Source: Gammaproteobacteria bacterium RIFCSPLOWO2_02_FULL_57_10 (lineage in GTDB: Bacteria; Pseudomonadota; Gammaproteobacteria; Pseudomonadales; Pseudohongiellaceae). From it: 41,451 nucleotides of DNA. How positions within the stretch are numbered: position 1 is the first letter of the stretch; each line of letters opens with the position of its first letter. Below are positions 6,600 to 25,550 of this stretch, piece by piece. The stretch is from NCBI GenBank assembly GCA_001802565.1, contig MGYS01000090.1, positions 112,220 to 153,670 on the forward strand, given 5' to 3'. The notes beneath the pieces are model-generated. The model made no database searches and was not told where the DNA came from. It was given only the letters and a program-made list of their open reading frames with translations. A program made the translations under genes and the position numbers.

Positions 6600-7853
6600 C
6601 TATTGCGACAGTTGAATGCGCTCCACTTCACCCATCTGCGAGTAGGCCGAGGTGATGACTCTATCTCCCACCGCAAGACCCTCGCGCACTTCCACAAAGC
6701 GGTTGTTACGCCGCCCTGTGACGATGTCGCGACGCACGGCGTAATTGCCCTCCGCATCCACGACAAACACCCAGTTGCCGCCAGTGTCCTGAATGAAGCC
6801 ACCGAGTGGCAGCAGCAGCGACTCAACAGGATTCCCCAGCGTCAGATCAAGCTGCAGTGTCTGTCCACGACGAATGTTGCCTGGCGTGCCACCTTCGAAT
6901 ATGAGATCCACGGTGAAAGTGCCTTCCGTGATTTCGGGATACACCTTCAACACACTGCCCTGAAACTGCTGGCCCACCAGCGTGAAGCGTGCCGATTGGC
7001 CGGGCGCGACACGGGTCACGTAGTACTCGTCCACTTGCGCGACGATCTTGTACTCGTCGATCACATCGATCTGACCGAGGCGCTGGCCACGAATCTTGTT
7101 CTCACCTATCTCGACAGGCAGTGATGTGAGCTGACCCGCCACTGGCGCGCGCACCAGCAGGTTCTCGAAACTGCTCAGGGAAAGTGCCAGGTTGTCCTGC
7201 AATTTGCTCATCTGACCGGCGATCTGTAGCGTGCGCTCCTTGCGGATGCGCTCCTCCAGCAATTGCCGCTGCATAGTGTTCTCGTGGATTTTCTTCTGGT
7301 ATGCCAGCGAGTCTGAGATCGCGTCGTACTCCTCCTTCGATACCAGCTCGTCGCTCACAAGTTGCTCTAGTCTCTGCTTCTGCCGCTCCAGTACCTTGAT
7401 CTGGTATTCGCTGTCGATCAGCGCTCGCTCGGTCATCAGGCGCGTTGTTTCCAGGCCATTGCTGATATTGGCAAGATTGTTGAGCTGCTCGGTGGTCTGC
7501 GTGTCATTGCTTGCCACCTGCAACTGCAGATCGCCGTTACTCAATTGTAGCAGCGGTTGTCCGGCCTCCACGAAGCTGCCTTCCTCAGCCAGTACTTCTT
7601 CTACGACACCACCGTTGACGGCATCGAGAAACACGCTGGTGAAAGGCTGGATGGTGCCACGAATCGGCGTGACATCCTCGAAGGCGCCCAGTGTCACTTC
7701 CGACACCACAAGTTGCTCTGCGTCAACCCGATAGGTACGAATCGCAGCGTCGGTAAGCATGCCCTGAAGGAACCAGAGTATCCCTGCGACTGCTAAGCCC
7801 ATCGCGCCCCACTGCCAGAGTGGGCGCCTCTTTTTCTCGATAGCTTTATCCAT
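6600..7853 (-). CDS. HlyD/MacA-type periplasmic adaptor subunit of ABC exporter
   Basis: 417 aa; single N-terminal TM, lipoyl/barrel-sandwich segments (GGVVEEVLAEEGSFVEAGQPLLQL, VRAPVAGQLTSLPVEIGE), coiled-coil hairpin. Confidence 0.88.
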   Translation of the reverse strand: MDKAIEKKRRPLWQWGAMGLAVAGILWFLQGMLTDAAIRTYRVDAEQLVVSEVTLGAFEDVTPIRGTIQPFTSVFLDAVNGGVVEEVLAEEGSFVEAGQPLLQLSNGDLQLQVASNDTQTTEQLNNLANISNGLETTRLMTERALIDSEYQIKVLERQKQRLEQLVSDELVSKEEYDAISDSLAYQKKIHENTMQRQLLEERIRKERTLQIAGQMSKLQDNLALSLSSFENLLVRAPVAGQLTSLPVEIGENKIRGQRLGQIDVIDEYKIVAQVDEYYVTRVAPGQSARFTLVGQQFQGSVLKVYPEITEGTFTVDLIFEGGTPGNIRRGQTLQLDLTLGNPVESLLLPLGGFIQDTGGNWVFVVDAEGNYAVRRDIVTGRRNNRFVEVREGLAVGDRVITSAYSQMGEVERIQLSQ

Positions 7854-7873
7854 ATTTCTTCGAGGCCTTACTT

Positions 7874-10294
7874 CTATTCATATCGCAACGCATGCACGGG
7901 ATTCCTTCGGATGGTACTCCAGGATTGCAAGGCCATCGTCAGGAACGCCGACAGAATTGCCAGCGCAGCCGCTGCAGGAAACACCAGAAGATTGATCTCA
8001 TCTCGATAAGCAAAATTCTGCAACCACGCATTGATGGCATACCAGGACAGGACTGACGCGATCACGGAACCGATGCAGACCAGAACGAAGATGTTGCGGA
8101 ACAGCACAGTCATGATCTGGCCGACGCTCGCACCAAATACCTTGCGTATGCCAATCTCGCGGGTTCTGCGTTCAGTGGAGTACGCGCTCAGTCCGAGCAA
8201 GCCAAGACATGAGATCAGGATGCAGACCGCCGCGAACCAGGCAATGATATCGACGATGCGATTCTCGCTGTCATATTGCTGGCGGATGATGTCGTCGAGC
8301 GTGCGATAGTCGAAGGGGAGCTCCGGCATCACTTCACGCCAAATGCCGTCCAGGCGCGCCAACACATCAGGATCTATTCGCTGGTTAAGCGCAATAGTGA
8401 TCCTGACGCTCTGAGCTGCGCGTCGCTCGGGATTAGTCACCGTACTGTAAAAACCTGGATTGGTTTGGCGCAGGATCAACGGTCCAATCGCACTCTGCAG
8501 TCCGGCAAAGTGGAAGTCTCTGACCACGCCCCCGACGATCTCTGTCCCTTCTGCATTTGCTGGCATGCCCGTGCGCTTTCCGATTGGATTGATCCAACCC
8601 ATTTGCTTCACCAGCGTCTCATTCACTACAACAAGATTACGTGCATCGTCGGTCGTGAAGAAACGACCCGCAAGCAACTCCATCCCCATAACATCGAGAT
8701 AACGACTGTCGACGTTCTGAAAGCTCAGAAAATGTGGCTCCAACGCACCATCTTCGTTTTCCAACAGCCAATTCCCAGCATATGACTCCACGCCCGGGTC
8801 CAGCGCCGTCAGCGTGACACCTTTTACCTGCGGCAGACTCTGCATCCGATCCGCAAGCACCGATGTTCGCTCGATGAAGTCTACGCCTTGCACGTCGACG
8901 ACAAGTTTGTTGTCCTTGTCGAAACCCAGCGGTTCGTTCTGGATGTAACGCATCTGCGCCACAATCAACAGACTGCAGGCGATCACGGAGACAGTCACAG
9001 CGAACTGGAAAATTACCAGCAATCGGCGTAGCAACGACTCGGAGCGACTGTTGGAACGGCGCACGCTGCCCGGCATCACCAATTGAGAGGAGAGATAGAA
9101 CGCGGGATACAAACCCGAAAGCAGGCCCAGCAGTAGGCTGCCGAACAAAACCAAAGCAAGAAGAGTGGGTTCACGATAAACAGCAGGCTCCAGAACTCCC
9201 GTAAACAGTTCTGTCACTCCCAATTGCACCAACACTTCAAGGCCTGCCAGCGCCACCACTCCTGCGGTCAGTGCAATGCAGACGGATTCCAGCAGAAACT
9301 GTGAAAGCAACGCTCCGCGTCTCACCCCCAGAACCTTCCGTACAGCCACCTCCTTGAGACGTCCTGCCGAACGAGCTGTCGCGAGATTAATGTAGTTGAT
9401 GCAGGCCACCAGTAGAATCAACGCTCCAATCACCGCGTAGGCATACACAATCAAGAGATTGCCTACCGGTTGGTCGTACTCTATCGACGGACCGTAGTGA
9501 ATATCCGCAATCGGAGTGATGTGCATCGCGTTGCTCAGCCCCGCTCCGCGCAGCAATTCCCCAGTTGTGTCTTCCCAGTATGAGTCAAAGAACGCTGAAA
9601 AATTGGCCGCGTCATAATTGTCCGCCAATACAAAATAGGTATATGTGCTTACCGTAAACAGGGACATCGGCAAGGCAGCCGGTTCCGGGTATGCCAGGCC
9701 GTTGATGGAAAGCAGCACGTCGTACTTGAAGTGGGTATTGCCAGGCTGATCCTCATAGACTAGAGCTACGCGGTAGTCGCGATTGTTGACAGTAATAGTC
9801 TCGCCAATCGAATCGGCACCAGCGAAATGAATTCTATTGAAGCGATTGCTTATCGCAGCCACCCCAGGATCAACCAGCGCAGTATTCATGTCGCCGTAGA
9901 CTGCTCTATGATCAAACACAGCAAAGACGTTATCGTCGGCTTCGTAGACCGCATCCCAGTAAAAAGGCTCTCCCTGCACTCTAATGAGACTTTTCCCCGG
10001 CATCGCCCGGAATCGCACAAATGCTTCGATCGCCGGGTTCTGCGCAGCCAGAGTTGGCGCCATGAAATGCGACATCTGCGCGAACGTGGTGGTGCCAGTG
10101 TTGTTGGTCAGATCAAGTGTTGCGCGATAGATGTTTTCATGTCCTGCGACGTGTTGGTCATAAGTCAGTTCATTCTGCACATGCATGCCGATGAGGAACG
10201 TACAGACGATGGCGACGGAGAGGCCGAGCACGTTGATGCCTGCGTAGAATTTTTCGCGACGCAGGTTGCGTAAAGTGATTTTCAGGTGGGTCAA
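7874..10294 (-). CDS. MacB/FtsX-type ABC transporter permease (permease 1)
   Basis: 806 aa; N-terminal MacB_PCD and FtsX signatures (ATARSAGRLKEVAVRKVLG; STERRTREIGIRKVFGAS; C-term NPVHALRYE). Confidence 0.92.
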   Translation of the reverse strand: MTHLKITLRNLRREKFYAGINVLGLSVAIVCTFLIGMHVQNELTYDQHVAGHENIYRATLDLTNNTGTTTFAQMSHFMAPTLAAQNPAIEAFVRFRAMPGKSLIRVQGEPFYWDAVYEADDNVFAVFDHRAVYGDMNTALVDPGVAAISNRFNRIHFAGADSIGETITVNNRDYRVALVYEDQPGNTHFKYDVLLSINGLAYPEPAALPMSLFTVSTYTYFVLADNYDAANFSAFFDSYWEDTTGELLRGAGLSNAMHITPIADIHYGPSIEYDQPVGNLLIVYAYAVIGALILLVACINYINLATARSAGRLKEVAVRKVLGVRRGALLSQFLLESVCIALTAGVVALAGLEVLVQLGVTELFTGVLEPAVYREPTLLALVLFGSLLLGLLSGLYPAFYLSSQLVMPGSVRRSNSRSESLLRRLLVIFQFAVTVSVIACSLLIVAQMRYIQNEPLGFDKDNKLVVDVQGVDFIERTSVLADRMQSLPQVKGVTLTALDPGVESYAGNWLLENEDGALEPHFLSFQNVDSRYLDVMGMELLAGRFFTTDDARNLVVVNETLVKQMGWINPIGKRTGMPANAEGTEIVGGVVRDFHFAGLQSAIGPLILRQTNPGFYSTVTNPERRAAQSVRITIALNQRIDPDVLARLDGIWREVMPELPFDYRTLDDIIRQQYDSENRIVDIIAWFAAVCILISCLGLLGLSAYSTERRTREIGIRKVFGASVGQIMTVLFRNIFVLVCIGSVIASVLSWYAINAWLQNFAYRDEINLLVFPAAAALAILSAFLTMALQSWSTIRRNPVHALRYE

Positions 10295-10367
10295 AGCAAT
10301 AATCTCTTATGCGTGGAACGTCAAAGTTCTCAAAAAATCTCTAAGTGCTCTGAATCACTATGCGCCG

Positions 10368-12809
10368 CTATTCATAGCGTAGTGAATCTACAGGATTCCG
10401 ATTTGCCGTTTGATATGACTGCCCAGCGATAGTCAGTAATGCCACAGTTGCGCAAATGCCAACGGCTATTACGAATATCACCACGTCAATCGATACACGA
10501 TAATCAATATAAAAACCCTGCTGCCATCTCACAAAGGTAAGGTACGCCAGAATTGAGGCTACAACTGCGGCCACGGAAAGGGCGATCAGTATGCCTCTGA
10601 CCAACAAGAGAATAATTTGCGATGTGGAAGCACCAAGCACTTTCCTGATCCCTATTTCCTTCGTGCGTCGTTGTGTCATGAGGGAAGAAAGACCAAGCAG
10701 GCCCATGCAGGAGATGAAAACACATAGCGCGGCAAACACGCCCATCAGCTTCATCTGGCGTGCTTGGGACTCATATAGCGAATCCAGGTAGTCACTTAGG
10801 TGCCAGAATTCGTAAGGATGGACGGGATCAATATCCTCCATAATCTGGCGCAGAGAATCCACAACGTCTGCCACATTTCCGTCGACAGCTACTGTCAAGT
10901 AACGATACTGCAGCGCACGATCCGACGGAGGGCTGCGACCAAAGTCAGCATTGTCTTGAAACATCAGCAGGGGTTCAATCTGTCTGCCCAAATCATGAAA
11001 ATTGAAGTCCCTGACGACACCGATCACGGAGTAATCGTTGTTCCTGAGCCGTAATCTCTTTCCTATCGGTTCACTCCAACCCATTTCTCGTACCGCAGTT
11101 TCGTTCACCAGGACAGGAAGAACAGAAGCACTCTGATAGGAATCCGAGAAACCTCTGCCATGCAGTATCTGCAGACCCATGACGTCAATGTACGCGGAAT
11201 CAAACGACAGCATTCTGAATGGTGCGGTCTGAAGAACTCCTGAGCTGCTCTCTACCTCGACAAGGTACAGATCATCCATTTGCCCAGGAATTGATCGGCT
11301 TAGAGCAGTACCGGAAATATTTCCGTTAACACCAAGTCTGCTTTCAATCTCAGGAAGTCGTTCTATTGCATCAGCGCCACGCAAGGGAACCACAACTCTA
11401 TTGTCCTTGATAAAACCCAAATCCTGGGTATGGATGAACTGCATCTGGTTGAACATTAGTAACGAACAGGCTATGACGCCAATAGATATGGTTAGCTGCA
11501 CGATAACAAGGAACTGTCGAAGCCATACCGATTGCCGCCCCTGTTTACCAGCAGAGTCCCTCAAGCTGGTCGCAGGAGCGAGAGACGAAAGGTAGAAAGC
11601 TGGATAACTGCCTGCCACTATTCCTAGAATCATCGTCGCAAGAAATACTGTTGCCACTGAATTAATACTGATCGTGGTGATCAGTGATATCTCCTTTCCC
11701 AGCAACGTACTTATAGGGGTTATCTCAAGCAGCACCTGGGCAATTATCCAGCCTGCAATAACTCCGCAGAATGCGAAAAACAGCGATTCGCCGACAAATT
11801 GCGCAATCAGAGTGCTCTTCTCCGCTCCCAGGGTCTTTCGAACACCAATTTCCCTTGATCGCTTCAGTGCTCTGGCTATAGCCAGATTGATATAGTTGAT
11901 AACTGAAACGAACAAGGCAAACAGTCCAATAGCTATCAGCAAGTAAACATACAACCGATGCACTCCGGAGCTGCTGCCGCTTGTGTCTGAGAAAAAATGA
12001 ACTGAGGCGAGAGGCTCCAACTGCAGTCGCATGGTTGATGACAACTCTCTCCCTTTCTCTGCCATATAACGCGCCCAAAAATCGTCGTAGATGGAGGAAA
12101 AGTTGTCAGAGTTGTAACCGTCTGGAAGTAGCAAATAGGTGTAAGCTCCGAGATCCCAAAGGGCATCTCCGATTCGTGATGAATCAACAACGCCGGTCGA
12201 CAAGCGGTGATATGAAAGTAGTACGTCGTATTGCAGATGCGAATTCTCTGGCAGATCTTCAAATACCAGAGAAACGCGAAAAGAGTCGAGATCCGTGGTG
12301 ACAATTTTTCCTATTGGGTCTTCATTTCCGAAGAAGGTTCTGGCAAACGAGTGGCTGATCGCAATGGCGTCCGGCGATGACAATGCGGTAACTGGATCGC
12401 CTTCCATAATGCTGTGCGTGAATACCTCAAATACCTTTTCATCTGCAAAAAAGACATCGTCTTGATAATGAACAGTGTCCCCATAGCGAAAAACGGTGGG
12501 AGAGGTCGGTAACGCCCTGAATCGCACATACTCCTGTATTTCCGGGTAGTCACGTTTCAACAGAGGCCCCAAGGCGAACGAACTTTCAGCGAATCTCTCA
12601 ACTGACCCCTGATTCTCCACCTGACTGGTCACACGATAAACGCGCTCATGCAGAACATTATGTTGATCATAGCTAAGCTCGGTGTATAGGTAACTTGCAA
12701 GTATCAAACATGCGCCTATGCTTAATGCGAGACCGAGGATATTGATTACCGTATAAGTTTTTTCTCGCAAGGCGTTGCGGATAATAATAGTCAAATAGCC
12801 GCTATTCAT
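10368..12809 (-). CDS. MacB/FtsX-type ABC transporter permease (permease 2)
   Basis: 813 aa; ALKRSREIGVRKTLGAE, MTQRRTKEIGIRKVLGAS, C-term NPVDSLRYE. Confidence 0.92.
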   Translation of the reverse strand: MNSGYLTIIIRNALREKTYTVINILGLALSIGACLILASYLYTELSYDQHNVLHERVYRVTSQVENQGSVERFAESSFALGPLLKRDYPEIQEYVRFRALPTSPTVFRYGDTVHYQDDVFFADEKVFEVFTHSIMEGDPVTALSSPDAIAISHSFARTFFGNEDPIGKIVTTDLDSFRVSLVFEDLPENSHLQYDVLLSYHRLSTGVVDSSRIGDALWDLGAYTYLLLPDGYNSDNFSSIYDDFWARYMAEKGRELSSTMRLQLEPLASVHFFSDTSGSSSGVHRLYVYLLIAIGLFALFVSVINYINLAIARALKRSREIGVRKTLGAEKSTLIAQFVGESLFFAFCGVIAGWIIAQVLLEITPISTLLGKEISLITTISINSVATVFLATMILGIVAGSYPAFYLSSLAPATSLRDSAGKQGRQSVWLRQFLVIVQLTISIGVIACSLLMFNQMQFIHTQDLGFIKDNRVVVPLRGADAIERLPEIESRLGVNGNISGTALSRSIPGQMDDLYLVEVESSSGVLQTAPFRMLSFDSAYIDVMGLQILHGRGFSDSYQSASVLPVLVNETAVREMGWSEPIGKRLRLRNNDYSVIGVVRDFNFHDLGRQIEPLLMFQDNADFGRSPPSDRALQYRYLTVAVDGNVADVVDSLRQIMEDIDPVHPYEFWHLSDYLDSLYESQARQMKLMGVFAALCVFISCMGLLGLSSLMTQRRTKEIGIRKVLGASTSQIILLLVRGILIALSVAAVVASILAYLTFVRWQQGFYIDYRVSIDVVIFVIAVGICATVALLTIAGQSYQTANRNPVDSLRYE

Positions 12810-12878: not shown

Positions 12879-13556
12879 TCAACTATCTGTCTCACTCACA
12901 ATCCGTCCGTCCAACACCCGCACTATTCGTTTTCCCACTGCCGCATCCTCCGGCGAATGCGTCACCATCACAATCGTTGTGCCCTCGTCATTCAGCTTGC
13001 TCAGAATATTCATCACCTCCGCCCCATGCTCACTGTCCAGATTACCCGTCGGCTCGTCCGCAAGAATCATGTTCGGCGAATTCACAATCGCGCGCGCCAC
13101 CGCGACACGTTGTTGCTGTCCTCCTGAAAGCTGCTGCGGAAAATGCTTCATGCGATGCGCCATGTTCATCTTGTCGAGCACCGCTTCCACTTTCTTCTTG
13201 CGCTCGGGGGCAGGTGTCTTCGTGTAGATCAGCGGCAGCTCCACATTCTCGTACACGGTGAGTTCGTCAATCAGGTTGAAACTCTGGAACACGAAACCGA
13301 TGTTCTGCTTGCGCAGCATCGCGCGCTGGCGCTCCGAGTAGGACGACACTTCCTCGCCGAGAAACCAGTACTTGCCGCCATCGGGATTGTCGATCAGGCC
13401 GAGGATGTTCAGCAGCGTGGACTTGCCGCAACCGGACGGACCCATGATAGAGGTGAACTCGCCCTTCTCGATGGTGAGGTTGATGGAGTCCAACGCGGTG
13501 GTCTCCACTTCGTCGGTGCGGAAGAGTTTGGAGAGACCTTCGGTTCTGATGATCAT
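12879..13556 (-). CDS. MacB/LolD-type ABC transporter ATP-binding protein (copy A); start reassigned to 13556
   Basis: Walker A GPSGCGKST, signature LSGGQQQRVAVARA, Walker B MILADEPTG. ORF track opens at 13673, but ATG at 13556 (MIIRTEGLSKLF) matches copy B and lies downstream of the predicted sigma-54 TSS (~13658). Confidence 0.93.
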   Translation of the reverse strand: MIIRTEGLSKLFRTDEVETTALDSINLTIEKGEFTSIMGPSGCGKSTLLNILGLIDNPDGGKYWFLGEEVSSYSERQRAMLRKQNIGFVFQSFNLIDELTVYENVELPLIYTKTPAPERKKKVEAVLDKMNMAHRMKHFPQQLSGGQQQRVAVARAIVNSPNMILADEPTGNLDSEHGAEVMNILSKLNDEGTTIVMVTHSPEDAAVGKRIVRVLDGRIVSETDS

Positions 13557-13668
13557 CGTTGTTCCTTCTGTGAACAGATTGAAAGCCCCGGGTCGACCAG
13601 GGGGGACCAGTAGACCCGGAGGATACGCCGAAGAGGACAGTGCCGCATACAACGTATGACTCATGTGG

Positions 13669-13684
13669 AGCATGGTTTGTGCCA
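13669..13684 (-). promoter_or_regulatory. Sigma-54 (-24/-12) promoter of the ATPase-permease-permease-adaptor operon
   Basis: Minus strand TGGCAC-AAACC-ATGCT versus consensus TGGCACGNNNNTTGCW; GG/GC spacing correct; predicted TSS ~13658, 5' of ATG 13556. Confidence 0.75.
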
Positions 13685-13746
13685 GTCGGTCTTTTCATTG
13701 CAAATCAATCAACTACAGATGATGGCGAATGATGAGGCAATAGAAG

Positions 13747-13763
13747 CGTTTCACATTGGGACA
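13747..13763. promoter_or_regulatory. Predicted response-regulator binding site (UAS)
   Basis: CGTTTCACATTGGGACA; fits yGTwyCAnnnTGraACr palindrome; centre about -97 from predicted TSS. Confidence 0.55.
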
Positions 13764-13770
13764 GGGCGAA

Positions 13771-13787
13771 CGTATCAGAATGGAACA
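13771..13787. promoter_or_regulatory. Predicted response-regulator binding site (UAS)
   Basis: CGTATCAGAATGGAACA; on the minus strand shares TGTTCCATTCTGA with the site at 19288-19304; centre about -121. Confidence 0.6.
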
Positions 13788-15438: not shown

Positions 15439-15774
15439 TTACTCGTAGCGTAGAGAAAGCACCGGATTCAGATTCGCAATTCTTGCGCACTGAATAACGA
15501 CGGTCAGGATCGCCAGCAGAATCATCACAAGGGTGACCAATATATAGTTGGCAGCGGAAAATATGGCTTGAGAAGAGAAACCCGCATAGAACATGTCGAT
15601 GAAAAGATACGCGAAGGGCCAGGCTACAAGACATGACACCAGCACCGGCCTGAGAAAATCCCAAGTCAGTAACAGAACAATGGAAATGGCTCTGGCTCCA
15701 AGGATCTTTCGTATCCCGACCTCCTTGGTGCGCTTCGTCGTCGAGTAATACGCCAGTGCGAACAATCCTCATGA
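15439..15774 (-). pseudogene. C-terminal remnant of a MacB/FtsX-type ABC permease
   Basis: Encodes only GLFALAYYSTTKRTKEVGIRKILGA...NPVLSLRYE, the last ~110 aa of this permease family; in-frame TGA immediately upstream of GLFALA and no recognisable permease sequence before it. Confidence 0.85.
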
Positions 15775-16694: not shown

Positions 16695-16711
16695 TGTACC
16701 GTTATGAAACG
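16695..16711. promoter_or_regulatory. Predicted response-regulator binding site (UAS)
   Basis: TGTACCGTTATGAAACG; centre about -118 from predicted TSS 16821; 22 bp start-to-start from the next site. Confidence 0.55.
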
Positions 16712-16716
16712 CGCAC

Positions 16717-16733
16717 TGTTTCAGTTCAGAACA
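16717..16733. promoter_or_regulatory. Predicted response-regulator binding site (UAS)
   Basis: TGTTTCAGTTCAGAACA inside the larger inverted repeat ACTGTT-N9-AACAGT; centre about -96. Confidence 0.6.
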
Positions 16734-16794
16734 GTAATGCATGATTTTCCGGTTCTGCCTCGCCCAACGGCTTAATTTAAAACAGGTTTGTGAT

Positions 16795-16810
16795 TGGCGT
16801 GGATATTGCG
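16795..16810 (+). promoter_or_regulatory. Sigma-54 (-24/-12) promoter upstream of the permease at 16851
   Basis: TGGCGTGGATATTGCG; GG/GC spacing correct and the TTGC -12 element matches; predicted TSS ~16821. Confidence 0.75.
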
Positions 16811-16850
16811 ACAGATGGGTATCTACCAGATCCCATCAAGAGGACACCCG

Positions 16851-19241
16851 ATGAATTTCACCAGACAACTGTGGCGACAGTTCAAGGCCGACAAGACATT
16901 GTCGGCGATCAACATAATCGGGCTGACAGTCGCGATCACCTGCGCGCTGGTGATATTCAACTACGTCAGTTATCACTTGTCATTCGACAAATTCCACCGG
17001 GACTCAGACAGGATTCATCGTCTGTTGACGCTGGACACCAATCAGCCTGAGCTCCCTCCGTCCACCATGACCACGAATGCACTGGTTCCCGCTATCCGCG
17101 AAGCGATTCCCGAGGTGGAGGCGATCACGCGGTTCATGTATTCGTTGTCGGTTGTATTCCGGCTCGAAGACCGGGTGCATGTCCTGGACTCGGCGTTCCT
17201 GGCGGACCCGGAATTCTTCCAGGTGTTCAGCTTTCCACTGAAAAACGGAGTAAGCGGTGAGATTCTGGATGAACCCAACACGGTGATTCTGTCGCAAAGG
17301 TTTGCGACTCAGATGTTTGGAGACGAGGAACCTGTCGGAAAGAATCTGCGGGTGTTCAACACCCGTGATATGCGGGTGATTGGAATTCTTGAAGATATTC
17401 CGGCCAATTCGCACTTGCAGACCGACGCCATCATCTCCATTCGAGCTGATCCGAATCTGAATACAGAGAGGATGGAAGCCATGCAGAATTCCTGGTTGAC
17501 CATTTTCATGAATGCCTATCTGAAACTGCATGACGGGAGTGATCCTGCAGTGGTTGAGGAAAAGATCAAGCAGCTGATGCGAGAGCGTGAAGAGTCGGGC
17601 TATATAACGACAGAGATGCAATCACTTCACGATATACATCTGCACTCGTCCAACCTCGGCCCCTTTGCGCCGGATGCGGGAAAGGAAGACGTTCGCAAGA
17701 TCTTCGTCCTGATAAGTGTTGCCATCTTGCTGCTGGTGATCGCTGTCTGCAACTTCATCAATCTTGCAACCGCGCGGGCTGTCTCGCGAGCGAAGGAGGT
17801 CGGGGTTCGCAAGATTGCGGGCGCGCATCGCTGGCAGCTCGCTGGACAATTCTTTGCAGAATCCCTGGCATTGATAGCTGTCGCCAGCGCCCTCAGTCTT
17901 TGTCTGGTTGAAGTGCTGTCGCCGTGGATATCAATCGCGGGAATCGAACATCCGCTGGTCTATCTTTTCTCCGATGCGACGAGGGTGCTGATCGCCTTCA
18001 GTAGTCTGACTGCTGTGGCTTTTCTGGCAGCGTTCTATCCTGCGATTGTCCTGAGCTCCCAGAGAACCAGTGCCGCATTGAAAGGCAACTACGCGAAGAG
18101 CGCGACAGGGACAGCGACACGGAAATCGCTGATCGTGGTGCAGTTCACGATCTCCACCGCCGTGATGATCGTGTTGCTGGTCATCAATGCCCAGATTGGG
18201 TTTCTGCAGGATCAGGATCTTGGTTTTGAACCCGAAGGTCTGGTGCATGTCGATTTCAGCGACTCATCGATGTGGCAACAGTATGATGTGCTGGCGAATG
18301 AGCTGAACAACATCCCGCAGATTGAATCATTCACCACCAGCAGCTTTCTGCCAAGCCAGGGCGACTGGGGCAAAAGTGAGTTCGCATCGCTGGAAGGTGC
18401 TCGCGCAGGCTCCGGGGTGCTGGTGAATACGGCCGAAGTGAATGCGTCCTTCCTGCGCACCTACAGTACCAGCCTGCTGATGGGACAGGACTTCAACGAC
18501 GACATGGCCAATTCCGAGCTGAACCCTGTCATCGTGAATCAGGCCGCTGTCGCTCTCTATCAATGGAGTGACACCCCAATTGGAAAAACGCTGCGCATGC
18601 GTGATGGCACCGACCACACCATTGTGGGAGTAACGGAAGATGTGCGGTTTGGTGGACTGCAGAACGTTGTAGAGCCACTGGTCTTGCACTACCAGCAAGA
18701 GGCAACCTGGGTACTGGCCGTACGAATGGGTCCGGAGAACTTGGCGACAGGCCTGGCTGCGCTGCAGGCGGCGTGGGAGAAGGTCTATCCGGAATATCAG
18801 TTCGAGTACGGCATGCTCAGCGACAACATTGCAGGATTGCTCGGTGAGCAGGTGGAGTTTGCCGCGCAGCTCTTCCAGTCGACGTTCATTGCGATATTCA
18901 TTGCATGTCTGGGGTTGTATGGACATGCCGTGTTCAGTGCCCACCAGAACGCCAGGGAAGTGGGTATTCGGAAAGTCTTTGGCGCAACTGCCACCGACAT
19001 TCTGCAGTTGCTGGTCAAGGATTATGGCGTCCTGATACTGATCGCCAACGCGATTGCCTGGCCGATAGCACTCTACCTTTTGAATCTGTGGTTATCGGAA
19101 TTCAGCGAGCGGATTGATGCAGATATCTGGTACTTCGTGCAGGCAGCGCTGATCATCGTTTCAATCGCGGCGCTCACCGTATCGGTCAAAATGAAGCAGG
19201 TGATGGGGACCAACCCTGTCAAAGTGTTGCGCTACGAGTGA
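16851..19241 (+). CDS. MacB/FtsX-type ABC transporter permease (permease 3); start reassigned to 16851
   Basis: MNFTRQLWRQFKADKTLSAINIIGL..., ATARAVSRAKEVGVRKIAGAH, AHQNAREVGIRKVFGAT, NPVKVLRYE. ATG 16851 has an AGAGGA-like RBS; the ORF-track start at 16794 precedes the predicted TSS. Confidence 0.92.
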   Translation: MNFTRQLWRQFKADKTLSAINIIGLTVAITCALVIFNYVSYHLSFDKFHRDSDRIHRLLTLDTNQPELPPSTMTTNALVPAIREAIPEVEAITRFMYSLSVVFRLEDRVHVLDSAFLADPEFFQVFSFPLKNGVSGEILDEPNTVILSQRFATQMFGDEEPVGKNLRVFNTRDMRVIGILEDIPANSHLQTDAIISIRADPNLNTERMEAMQNSWLTIFMNAYLKLHDGSDPAVVEEKIKQLMREREESGYITTEMQSLHDIHLHSSNLGPFAPDAGKEDVRKIFVLISVAILLLVIAVCNFINLATARAVSRAKEVGVRKIAGAHRWQLAGQFFAESLALIAVASALSLCLVEVLSPWISIAGIEHPLVYLFSDATRVLIAFSSLTAVAFLAAFYPAIVLSSQRTSAALKGNYAKSATGTATRKSLIVVQFTISTAVMIVLLVINAQIGFLQDQDLGFEPEGLVHVDFSDSSMWQQYDVLANELNNIPQIESFTTSSFLPSQGDWGKSEFASLEGARAGSGVLVNTAEVNASFLRTYSTSLLMGQDFNDDMANSELNPVIVNQAAVALYQWSDTPIGKTLRMRDGTDHTIVGVTEDVRFGGLQNVVEPLVLHYQQEATWVLAVRMGPENLATGLAALQAAWEKVYPEYQFEYGMLSDNIAGLLGEQVEFAAQLFQSTFIAIFIACLGLYGHAVFSAHQNAREVGIRKVFGATATDILQLLVKDYGVLILIANAIAWPIALYLLNLWLSEFSERIDADIWYFVQAALIIVSIAALTVSVKMKQVMGTNPVKVLRYE

Positions 19242-19287: not shown

Positions 19288-19304
19288 TGTTCCATTCTGA
19301 AACA
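19288..19304. promoter_or_regulatory. Predicted response-regulator autoregulatory site
   Basis: TGTTCCATTCTGAAACA imperfect palindrome ending 2 bp before the predicted -24 element of the regulator gene. Confidence 0.6.
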
Positions 19305-19306
19305 AT

Positions 19307-19322
19307 CGGCGCTAGCATTGCC
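19307..19322 (+). promoter_or_regulatory. Sigma-54-like promoter of the response-regulator/kinase genes
   Basis: CGGCGCTAGCATTGCC; GGC and TTGC elements with correct spacing, two deviations in the -24 box; predicted TSS ~19333, ATG 19350. Confidence 0.6.
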
Positions 19323-19349: not shown

Positions 19350-20729
19350 ATGACAACAAGAACAGGCGGCAACCTCCTCGTCGTCGACGACGACCGCGAC
19401 GTGCTGCTCTCCGCGCAGATGATCCTCAAGCGCGAGTTCGCCAGCGTGCGCTGCCTGTCCAATCCTTCCGGGCTCAGCGACGAACTCGCCGCCTTCCCAC
19501 CCGACCTCGTTCTGCTGGACATGAACTTCACACGCGGCATGACCAGCGGTGACGAGGGGCTCTACTGGCTGCAGAAGATCAAGGAGACTGATCCTGGCAT
19601 TCAGGTGGTGATGTCCACGGCCTATGGTGAGATCGATCTTGCGGTGCGGGCGATCAAGCTCGGCGCCGCCGACTTCGTGCAGAAGCCGTGGGTCAACGAG
19701 AAGCTGGTGGCGACACTGCGCACTTGCCTGAAGCTGGGCGAATCCCATCGCCGCATCGAGCAGTTACAGCACACGCAGCAGGCACTCAGCGAGGAGATAG
19801 GGCGCGGATTCGCGGCGCTGATTGGCGAGTGCGAGTCCTTTGCGGTCGTGCGTTCGCTGATCGATCGCGTCGCTGCCACCGATGCCAACGTGTTGATCAC
19901 GGGCGAGAACGGCACTGGCAAGGATCTGGTCGCCCACGCCATTCATAACAAGTCTCTGCGGGCCAGTGGACCAATGATCTCGGTGGATATCGGCGCCATT
20001 CCAGCCACGCTGTTCGAGTCTGAGATGTTTGGTCACAACAAGGGTGCGTTTACCGACGCACGTGAGAATCGACCAGGCAAATTCGAACTGGCGACAGGTG
20101 GCACTCTGTTCCTCGATGAGATCGGCAATCTGGACGCTAACACGCAGGCGAAGCTGCTGCGCGCGCTGGAGTCGCGCACGATCACGCGAGTGGGTGGACA
20201 GAAACCCACTCCTATCGACATTCGCCTGATCTGTGCCACCAACGCGTCGGTACCCGATCTCTCGAATCCGGATGTATTTCGCCGCGATCTGCTCTACCGC
20301 ATCAACACAGTGGAAATCCGGCTGCCATCACTGCGCGAGCGTGCTGCGGACATTCCTCTTTTGCTCGAACATTATCGCGACATCTTCGCGCGCAAATACA
20401 ATCGCCCCGAAGCCAGTATTCCGAAAGCCACTGCCACGAAGCTGCAGTCCTACGATTGGCCGGGCAACGTGCGCGAACTGAAGCACGCGGTGGAGCGCGC
20501 CATCATCATTTCTTCCGAAGCGAAACTCACGGTGGAGGATTTCCTGATTGGCACCCGCGTGCAGGAAGAACCGGCGGGAAGCCTGAATCTCGCGGAGCTG
20601 GAAAGGAATGCCATCCGCAATGCGATTCGGCAGTGCGAAGGCAATCTCACACAGGTGGCGAAACTGCTCGGGCTCGGCAGGACGACGCTGTATCGGAAGA
20701 TGGAGAAATATGAACTCGTTGATCAGTAG
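19350..20729 (+). CDS. NtrC-family sigma-54-dependent response regulator
   Basis: Receiver (LLVVDDDRDVLL, LVLLDMNF, VQKPW), AAA+ (GENGTGKDLVAHAIH, GHNKGAFTDA, GGTLFLDEIGNL), Fis-type HTH (NLTQVAKLLGLGRTTLYRKM). Start at 19350 (MTTRTGGNLL). Confidence 0.95.
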   Translation: MTTRTGGNLLVVDDDRDVLLSAQMILKREFASVRCLSNPSGLSDELAAFPPDLVLLDMNFTRGMTSGDEGLYWLQKIKETDPGIQVVMSTAYGEIDLAVRAIKLGAADFVQKPWVNEKLVATLRTCLKLGESHRRIEQLQHTQQALSEEIGRGFAALIGECESFAVVRSLIDRVAATDANVLITGENGTGKDLVAHAIHNKSLRASGPMISVDIGAIPATLFESEMFGHNKGAFTDARENRPGKFELATGGTLFLDEIGNLDANTQAKLLRALESRTITRVGGQKPTPIDIRLICATNASVPDLSNPDVFRRDLLYRINTVEIRLPSLRERAADIPLLLEHYRDIFARKYNRPEASIPKATATKLQSYDWPGNVRELKHAVERAIIISSEAKLTVEDFLIGTRVQEEPAGSLNLAELERNAIRNAIRQCEGNLTQVAKLLGLGRTTLYRKMEKYELVDQ

Positions 20730-22077
20730 CATGAGAGGACACCGTGGTCAGGCAATCCTCTGCGTCGGTCTGTTGCTGCTCGCGATCTTCTTGTTCTGCC
20801 ACAGCATCCTGAGCACGGAATGGGTTGGCACACCGATCCTGTGTGGATTCGTCATCGTGATACTCACGTTAAATCTGATGCGCATGACCGAGCGCAGCAA
20901 CGAGAACTTCACGCAATTCATCAACAACATTTCCCACAACGACTTCTCCAGTACGACGTCGCACTCGAATGCGGAAAGCACGGCACAGAGATTTGTGGAC
21001 GCACAGAGAACGCTGTTGGAGAAGTATCGCAAGCTGAAGGCCGACCGATCGGCCCAACACGAGTACCTGCACCTGGTTGTGGAGCACGTGGACACCGCGC
21101 TGGTGTGTTTCGATGAAACTGGCAATATTGAAATCATCAATCAGGCTGCCAAAGATCTGTTGAAGAGTCGCTACATCAACACACTTGCCAGAATCGAGTC
21201 ACTCAGTCCCGCTTTGGGAGATGCGCTGCAGCAGTTGAAAGCTGGCGAGAATCGCGTGCTGAAAATCAATATCGGCAGTGATAGCGTCCAATTGATCCTC
21301 GCAGCGACGGAGTTTCGCCTTCTCGACCGCGAACACAAGCTGGTTTCCATGCAAAACATCCAGTCAGCCCTTGATGAAAAGGAGATTGAAAGCTGGCAGA
21401 AGCTGATCAAGGTGTTGACCCACGAAATCATGAATTCGATGACACCGATTGTCTCTCTCAGCAACCACCTTGAGAGCGTGGTGCAGGAAGGGGAAGTCAC
21501 AGACAGAGGAGTAACTACCGACGCGGATCAGTACCGGGATATTGTTCAGGGAATCGAGACCATTGCCGCACGCAGTCAGGGCCTGTTGCGATTCGTGCAG
21601 GCGTATCGGTCATTGAGCAACCTGCCGACTCCTGTCCTGACGGATGTCGACGTGCAGAATCTGTTCCAGCGCATGGCTACACTGTTGGAAGAGCGCTTTA
21701 CCAACGCGGGGATCGCTTTTCAATTCAATGTGAAACCGCAGACGCTGAGCGTGGTAGCTGACATCAATCTGATTGAACAGATCCTGCTGAACCTTCTCAA
21801 CAATGCGATTGACGCTGTTGACGGGAGAAGTGAGCCCCGCATCGAACTGACGGCATTCAAACACGAGCATGGCAGGACGATCATTCAGGTCGCAGATAAC
21901 GGCTGCGGCATCGGCAAAGATCAGATCGATAACATCTTCACGCCTTTCTTCACCACGAAGGAAACAGGCACGGGAGTGGGGCTGAGTCTTTCGCGACAGC
22001 TCGCCCGTCTAAATCATGCGTCATTGACAGTCAGCAGTGTGGAAGGCAAAGGCAGCCGCTTTCAGTTGCTGTTCTAA
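20710..22077 (+). CDS. Sensor histidine kinase, two TM helices + PAS + HATPase, partner of the NtrC-type regulator
   Basis: Two adjacent TM segments, PAS-like HLVVEHVDTALVCFDETGNIEIINQAAKDLL, H-box LTHEIMNSMTPI, N-box LLNLLNNAID, G-boxes DNGCGIGKDQIDNIFTPFFTTKETGTGVGLSLSRQL. Start 20710 or 20731. Confidence 0.93.
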   Translation: MNSLISSMRGHRGQAILCVGLLLLAIFLFCHSILSTEWVGTPILCGFVIVILTLNLMRMTERSNENFTQFINNISHNDFSSTTSHSNAESTAQRFVDAQRTLLEKYRKLKADRSAQHEYLHLVVEHVDTALVCFDETGNIEIINQAAKDLLKSRYINTLARIESLSPALGDALQQLKAGENRVLKINIGSDSVQLILAATEFRLLDREHKLVSMQNIQSALDEKEIESWQKLIKVLTHEIMNSMTPIVSLSNHLESVVQEGEVTDRGVTTDADQYRDIVQGIETIAARSQGLLRFVQAYRSLSNLPTPVLTDVDVQNLFQRMATLLEERFTNAGIAFQFNVKPQTLSVVADINLIEQILLNLLNNAIDAVDGRSEPRIELTAFKHEHGRTIIQVADNGCGIGKDQIDNIFTPFFTTKETGTGVGLSLSRQLARLNHASLTVSSVEGKGSRFQLLF

Positions 22078-22748
22078 GTTTCACTCACGATCCTCCCATC
22101 CAGCACCCGCACCATTCGTTTCCCCACCGCCGCATCCTCCGGCGAGTGTGTCACCATCACGATCGTTGTGCCTTCCTCATTCAACTTGCCCAGAATATTC
22201 ATCACCTCGGCACCGTGCTCGCTGTCGAGGTTACCGGTGGGTTCGTCCGCAAGGATCATGTTCGGCGAATTCACAATCGCTCGTGCCACCGCAACACGCT
22301 GCTGCTGACCACCGGAAAGCTGCTGCGGAAAATGTTTCATGCGGTGCGCCATGTTCATCTTGTCGAGCACTGCTTCCACTTTCTTCTTACGCTCGGGGGC
22401 AGGTGTCTTCGTGTAGATCAGTGGCAGCTCCACGTTCTCGTACACCGTCAGCTCATCAATGAGATTGAAACTCTGGAACACAAAACCGATGTTCTGCTTG
22501 CGCAGCATCGCGCGCTGGCGCTCGGAGTAGGACGAGACTTCTTCGTCGAGAAACCAGTACTTGCCGCCGTCAGGATTGTCGATCAGGCCGAGGATATTCA
22601 GCAGCGTGGATTTGCCGCAACCGGACGGGCCCATGATGGACGTGAACTCGCCCTTCTCGATGGTGAGGTTGATGGAGTCCAGCGCAGTGGTTTCCACTTC
22701 GTCGGTGCGGAACAGTTTCGAGAGTCCTTCTGTTCTGATGATAGCCAT
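22074..22748 (-). CDS. MacB/LolD-type ABC transporter ATP-binding protein (copy B)
   Basis: 224 aa, differs from copy A (12879-13556) at only a handful of residues by eye; Walker A/B and LSGGQQQ signature present. Confidence 0.95.
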   Translation of the reverse strand: MAIIRTEGLSKLFRTDEVETTALDSINLTIEKGEFTSIMGPSGCGKSTLLNILGLIDNPDGGKYWFLDEEVSSYSERQRAMLRKQNIGFVFQSFNLIDELTVYENVELPLIYTKTPAPERKKKVEAVLDKMNMAHRMKHFPQQLSGGQQQRVAVARAIVNSPNMILADEPTGNLDSEHGAEVMNILGKLNEEGTTIVMVTHSPEDAAVGKRMVRVLDGRIVSET

Positions 22749-25250: not shown

Positions 25251-25404
25251 GGGGTGTCTCTCGCATCCAATGAGAAGAGGAGAGACAAATGGAATTATGG
25301 AATACTGCATCCTGCCATGGGCGCTCCGTTGACCAAAGGTACCACAAAGAGCGTGGGCTGGAAGCAAAATCTAATAATCAGACTATGACTTGCAGGCATA
25401 CAAC

Positions 25405-25474
25405 CTGTGGGAGCGGGCCTGCCCGCGATTGAACCTGCACTGAAGTCAATCGCGGGCAGGGCCCGCTCCCACAG
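25405..25474. repeat. REP doublet (REPIN/BIME-like), GGGC-type stem
   Basis: ctgtgggagcgggcctgcccgcgattgaacctgcactgaagtcaatcgcgggcagggcccgctcccacag. Confidence 0.88.
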
Positions 25475-25550
25475 TGTCTTGGCTGGCGAAGCCGGACAGG
25501 CGTGTGCTACCTTGCTGGCATGTTTCACACACCAGCATCAGGAAGTACAT

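Follow-up and report, generated by a model that had tools for sequence, protein, structure and literature searches.

A predicted sigma-54 promoter with tandem activator sites precedes an ABC exporter permease gene and recurs at exporter genes of related bacteria

The window analyzed here, a 41,451-nucleotide stretch of DNA (contig 90, bases 112220–153670) from a 3.39-Mb gammaproteobacterial genome, carries ABC exporter genes together with the genes of a two-component system. Permease 3 (16851–19241, plus strand) is an ADOP-like permease of an ABC exporter in which the MacB_PCD and FtsX domains are duplicated and which lacks an ATPase of its own. Its gene starts at the ATG at 16851, about 30 bases 3′ of the predicted transcription start; a longer reading frame from 16794 covers the promoter and does not represent the permease 3 gene. 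Downstream on the same strand lie the genes for an NtrC-type response regulator (19350–20729), which combines a receiver, a sigma-54 AAA+ domain with the loop GAFTDA and a Fis-type helix-turn-helix (HTH) containing GRTTLYRK, and for its partner histidine kinase (20731–22077), with two predicted transmembrane segments and the H-box LTHEIMNSMTP. On the minus strand, a leftward operon runs from 13556 down to 6600 and encodes ATPase 1 (12879–13556), whose nearest named family is DarD at a score under the cut-off, and, within 6600–12809, two FtsX-type permeases (10368–12809 and 7874–10294) and a HlyD-type adaptor (6600–7853).

The 3′ side of the kinase gene is occupied by permease 4 and ATPase 2 (22074–22748), both leftward. 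ATPases 1 and 2 share about 98% protein identity despite widely different adjoining permeases, suggesting a recent duplication or gene conversion. No activator-site pair is present at permease 4; upstream of it, at 25395–25480, lies a GC-rich inverted repeat (GTGGGAGCGGGC...GCCCGCTCCCAC) resembling a REP element or a terminator. The interval between the two divergent promoters described below contains a permease remnant, an orphan 3′ piece of an FtsX-type gene (15439–15765, minus strand), with an AAA_14/DUF4143 gene on one side and a VTT-domain gene on the other.

The permease 3 promoter TGGCGTGGATATTGCG occupies 16795–16810 on the plus strand, with GG at −24 and GC at −12 separated by 10 bp, as sigma-54 promoters require. 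Setting +1 at 12 bp past the −12 GC places the predicted transcription start at about 16821, from which the centers of the activator sites were counted. The distal predicted site, UAS1 (TGTACCGTTATGAAACG, 16695–16711, plus strand, center about −118), is an imperfect dyad with two mismatches to TGTTYC-N5-GRAACA, and the proximal one, UAS2 (TGTTTCAGTTCAGAACA, 16717–16733, plus strand, center about −96), has a single mismatch. A sequence-only reading of this DNA had proposed a sigma-54 promoter here, preceded by two palindromes 22 bp apart and centered at −118 and −96. The letters and positions of the promoter proved correct, the coordinates and spacing of the sites hold exactly, and the centers agree given a start at about 16821; the larger perfect repeat ACTGTT-N9-AACAGT that it noted at one site lies around UAS2, at 16715–16735. 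The consensus TGTTYC-N5-GRAACA is common to three places in the window, namely this pair, a second pair at 13771/13747 and a palindrome at 19288–19304. An initial guess at the dyad (ACTGTNNC...) had the wrong length and returned chance matches only.

The second pair precedes the divergent ATPase-permease-HlyD operon. Its predicted sigma-54 promoter (TGGCACAAACCATGCT, 13669–13684, minus strand) is accompanied on the same strand by a proximal predicted site (TGTCCCAATGTGAAACG, 13747–13763, center about −97) and a distal one (TGTTCCATTCTGATACG, 13771–13787, center about −121). The two loci had been described as having the same geometry, which is true of the distance from the proximal site to the promoter (78 bp at permease 3, 79 bp at the ATPase operon) and not of the site spacing (22 versus 24 bp). 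A further palindrome (TGTTCACAGAAGGAACA, 13560–13576), with one mismatch to the motif, coincides in part with the ribosome-binding region of ATPase 1; it probably matches by chance.

Both loci also contain a component that was missing from the sequence-only reading, an IHF-like site between the activator sites and the promoter. At permease 3 it is AATTAAGCCGTTG (16765–16777, minus strand), with one mismatch to WATCAANNNNTTR, and at the ATPase operon it is AATCAATCAACTA (13703–13715, plus strand), likewise with one mismatch. Across the promoters compared, an IHF-like match with at most two mismatches falls in this interval in 26 of 31, a count that includes orthologues and is thus not one of fully independent cases, and in these 26 it lies 28–32 bases before the −24 box, on the same strand. 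The source genome encodes IhfA (3′ of pheT) and IhfB (3′ of rpsA), both assigned by eye from their sequences and these neighboring genes, and RpoN, identified by PF04552 (238 bits, over the cut-off).

We then considered how much of this arrangement chance could produce. A plain −24/−12 search of the window gave 13 matches against 16.6 expected in shuffles, so that such a match alone proves nothing. The −24 box of the permease 3 promoter reads TGGCGTG, not TGGCACG, and by an approximate matrix this promoter on its own therefore scores under several other window matches that are themselves probably due to chance. Tandem site pairs fitting the core are a different matter: the window has exactly two of them, compared with 0.04 per window in a first-order Markov simulation, and not one full module arose in 150 simulated windows. 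An accidental juxtaposition of a palindrome pair and a sigma-54-like hexamer pair would fit the ordinary frequency of single −24/−12 matches, but set against the simulations, the presence of exactly two modules in the whole 3.39-Mb genome and their conservation across genera, we give this explanation next to no weight.

The genome-wide tests were pattern searches, in which a composite pattern (−24/−12, gap, site, gap, site), along with a second variant for the ATPase promoter, was run against 137 whole genomes of the family; the near relatives of the source genome are gammaproteobacterial metagenome assemblies. The first pattern returned 24 matches and the variant two more, and all 26 lie 40–362 bp 5′ of a gene for an exporter ATPase or an FtsX/MacB-type permease. 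Backwards patterns, searched on either strand of the same 137 genomes, gave none. In the source genome each pattern matched once, at the permease 3 promoter and at the ATPase operon promoter, respectively. The site spacing was 22–24 bp, with one case of 21, among all fetched loci under looser limits, and the distance from proximal site to promoter was 75–79 bp in the family genomes, except in one weaker match. These results support a sigma-54 promoter with tandem upstream sites for permease 3 and a predicted regulator common to it and the divergent operon, as had been proposed.

Permease 3 has orthologues in G039 (81% identity) and G044 (about 52%) at which both sites and the promoter persist, and in G044 the DNA between these elements is largely unrelated to the permease 3 promoter region. 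Permease and regulator are encoded on separate contigs in G044, and the same is true of a second permease copy in G039, so the element is retained at targets remote from the regulator gene, which is what control in trans would predict. Two genomes with a regulator orthologue and no strict match, G038 and G022, carry the element in a form that departs slightly from the strict pattern. The permease 3 homologue of G022 has no such promoter; it may be co-transcribed, since the gene just 5′ of it looks, by eye, like an adaptor gene. Module-like matches at two distant loci of Bacteroidota were left unused: L041 was not linked to an exporter gene, and L043 has a weak −12 box.

The third occurrence of the consensus, TGTTCCATTCTGAAACA (19288–19304, plus strand), is a predicted operator 5′ of the regulator gene. 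It is the sole zero-mismatch site in the source genome, which also contains 19 one-mismatch sites, two of them in this cluster. The operator overlaps the −35 of a likely sigma-70 promoter, whose putative −10-like box TAGCAT follows at 19313–19318 on the plus strand. In nearly all relatives the regulator gene has a similar and usually perfect palindrome ahead of it, as a rule no more than about 150 bases from the gene start, and in most cases TAGCAT or a comparable −10-like box comes next. The regulator probably limits its own synthesis through the 19288 site, to judge from this overlap. In genus g8 (L009, L010, L012–L016 and L024), the regulator–ATPase intergenic region contains a second sigma-54-like box, approximately TGGCGYYANNNTTGCT, that faces the regulator gene, so that the site pair there may serve two divergent sigma-54 promoters.

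The motif thus seems usable as a plain operator before the regulator gene, and one could read the palindromes upstream of permease 3 in the same way, as operators of a conventional sigma-70 repressor or activator beside an incidental −24/−12 match. Against this stand the recurrence in relatives of both the 75–79-bp distance from site to −24/−12 and the intervening IHF-like site, the restriction of the composite pattern to exporter genes, and the lack of any good sigma-70 promoter in 16700–16850. We consider the sigma-70 explanation very unlikely.

The evidence points instead to sigma-54 control by the NtrC-type regulator encoded in the cluster. Its domains PF00072, PF00158 and PF02954 (receiver, sigma-54 AAA+ and Fis-type HTH) all score over their cut-offs. 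Composite matches were found in 12 of the 14 genomes with an orthologue of this regulator (at least 58% identity) and in 2 of the 123 without one (Fisher 1.4e-13, uncorrected for shared ancestry). The two exceptions are G037 and G091, the latter only 73% complete. Among loci retrieved for their resemblance to the regulator, tandem sites accompany the recognition helix GRTTLYR at 12 of 16 loci and any other helix at 0 of 50 classified loci, again uncorrected for shared ancestry. One of these 12 regulators, that of L042, is 48% identical to ours. This Cyclobacteriaceae locus carries a tandem-site/−24/−12 element (L042:5108–5225) with spacings of 24 and 78 bp beside its GRTTLYR regulator, hinting at conservation across phyla or at transfer. 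Together with the element's retention at permease 3 orthologues and the presence of RpoN and IHF genes, the association with regulator and helix further strengthens the assignment.

The sites and promoter could be real and yet be bound by another enhancer-binding protein, or be shared by several related regulators. The source genome encodes five more sigma-54 activators, G037 has a match without a close regulator orthologue, and relatives such as G136 and G089 contain several paralogues of the regulator. These five activators, however, are 34–39% identical to the cluster regulator, and the site follows the orthologue and its GRTTLYR helix in the comparisons above; moreover, nearly all relatives have a copy of the site ahead of the regulator's own gene. 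Binding by a different protein, or by several, is accordingly improbable, although we rate it above the chance and sigma-70 explanations.

The sigma-54 contact loop of the assigned regulator reads GAFTDA and not exactly GAFTGA, as it does in nearly all orthologues. GAFTDA is listed among the variants expected to keep activity in a survey of Desulfovibrio (PMC4641369). Within the regulator's group, 97 of 116 activators have GAFTDA in place of GAFTGA, and this group may represent a large clade with a variant contact loop. The model of the PEP-CTERM regulator PrsR (TIGR02915) gave the cluster regulator 357 bits, below its cut-off of 503. The partner kinase has two apparent membrane segments joined by a loop of about seven residues, as judged by eye, an arrangement common to most orthologues, and it has no large sensor outside the membrane. 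Kinases that sense either the membrane or a transporter they work with look similar, a lead for what this one may detect.

Taken together, the region very probably serves permease 3 as its enhancer and promoter, at which the phosphorylated NtrC-type regulator would activate exporter genes through sigma-54 and DNA looping. Upon stimulation, the histidine kinase would phosphorylate the regulator encoded downstream, whose dimers would then occupy both 17-bp sites on one face of the DNA, at a distance of about two turns, and form an AAA+ oligomer. An IHF-induced bend between the sites and the −24/−12 promoter would allow this oligomer to reach sigma-54 RNA polymerase and open the promoter. The same element would drive the divergent ATPase-permease-HlyD operon, and with a common element there, permease 3, lacking an ATPase, would be produced alongside its likely partner. 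Nothing resembling a terminator was found from the end of permease 3 to the regulator, so that switching on permease 3 could increase the regulator as well: read-through that extends to the genes of regulator and kinase would provide positive feedback. Conversely, the regulator bound to the perfect site over the likely sigma-70 promoter would block sigma-70 polymerase and provide negative feedback. The inducing signal is probably an envelope-active compound.

This arrangement resembles the enhancer-dependent sigma-54 promoters of the NtrC family, known from NtrC at glnA, NifA at the nif genes and PspF at pspA. It shares with NtrC-family promoters the −24/−12 elements, dyad sites about 100 bp 5′ and an IHF-like site between them, and with NtrC-family systems an activator of receiver-AAA+-Fis-HTH architecture with a partner kinase. 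In contrast to the NtrC, NifA and PspF systems, it features the operator TGTTYC-N5-GRAACA, a rigid geometry of 22–24-bp tandem sites at 75–79 bp from the promoter, and the GAFTDA loop, and the targets found for it are exporter genes without exception.

An enrichment of sigma-54 promoters before FtsX-like ABC permeases (COG0577, COG1136) has been reported for Gammaproteobacteria, Opitutia and Bacteroidia, in passages that call it the first evidence for such a link (PLoS One 2025, PMC12316311). As those passages describe it, that study scored −24/−12 promoters by COG, and the type of target gene is the same as here; searching its text for UAS returned nothing, and its passages on these genes name no activator, operator or spacing. 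The general link between sigma-54 and these permeases is therefore already in print. Searches of open-access literature turned up no account of the activator, operator, IHF-like site or spacing for this group and no characterized sigma-54 two-component system with control over MacB/FtsX exporters, and the operator of the cluster regulator appears to be undescribed. Our analysis provides a concrete, promoter-level case of this statistical link and would assign an operator, a spacing rule and a target set to a regulator of the GAFTDA group of sigma-54 activators. Because all 26 matches precede exporter genes, the pattern has the specificity needed to pick out additional targets in whole genomes, and it can suggest partners among scattered permeases and ATPases and help to find inducing conditions. 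The finding is useful in that it defines a small, testable exporter regulon.

The exporter itself is built like MacAB-TolC, DarBCD (darobactin) and ADOP transporters from an ATPase, FtsX-type permeases with MacB_PCD and a HlyD-type adaptor; unlike in these, the ATPase is unfused to a permease and several permeases accompany each ATPase. The nearest NCBIfam models of the cluster exporter proteins are DarD, ADOP/DarB and DarC. Permease 3 contains only MacB_PCD and FtsX domains, with no fused ATPase, and reached 47 bits with the MacB model (cut-off 966) and 287 bits with the ADOP model (cut-off 622), the latter despite full-length alignment. Likewise, the DarBCD equivalogs scored under their cut-offs (DarD 272/375, DarC 173/450, DarB 106/700), and no biosynthetic gene was recognized nearby among the genes scanned. 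With the exporter proteins under the ADOP and DarBCD cut-offs, no substrate should be assumed.

In the Bce-type flux-sensing modules of Firmicutes, the kinase linked to the FtsX-type permeases has two membrane segments with a very short loop between them and acts with an OmpR-type regulator. Here, too, FtsX-type permeases have a genetic link to a predicted two-segment, short-loop kinase; the cluster differs in its NtrC-type sigma-54 activator and its MacB/ADOP-type permeases. It is conceivable, if rather doubtful, that we are looking at a Gram-negative counterpart of Bce-type detoxification modules, in which a kinase nearly devoid of an extracytoplasmic portion would sense the exporter complex or membrane damage, and a GAFTDA activator would switch on dispersed permeases served by one ATPase under matched positive and negative feedback.
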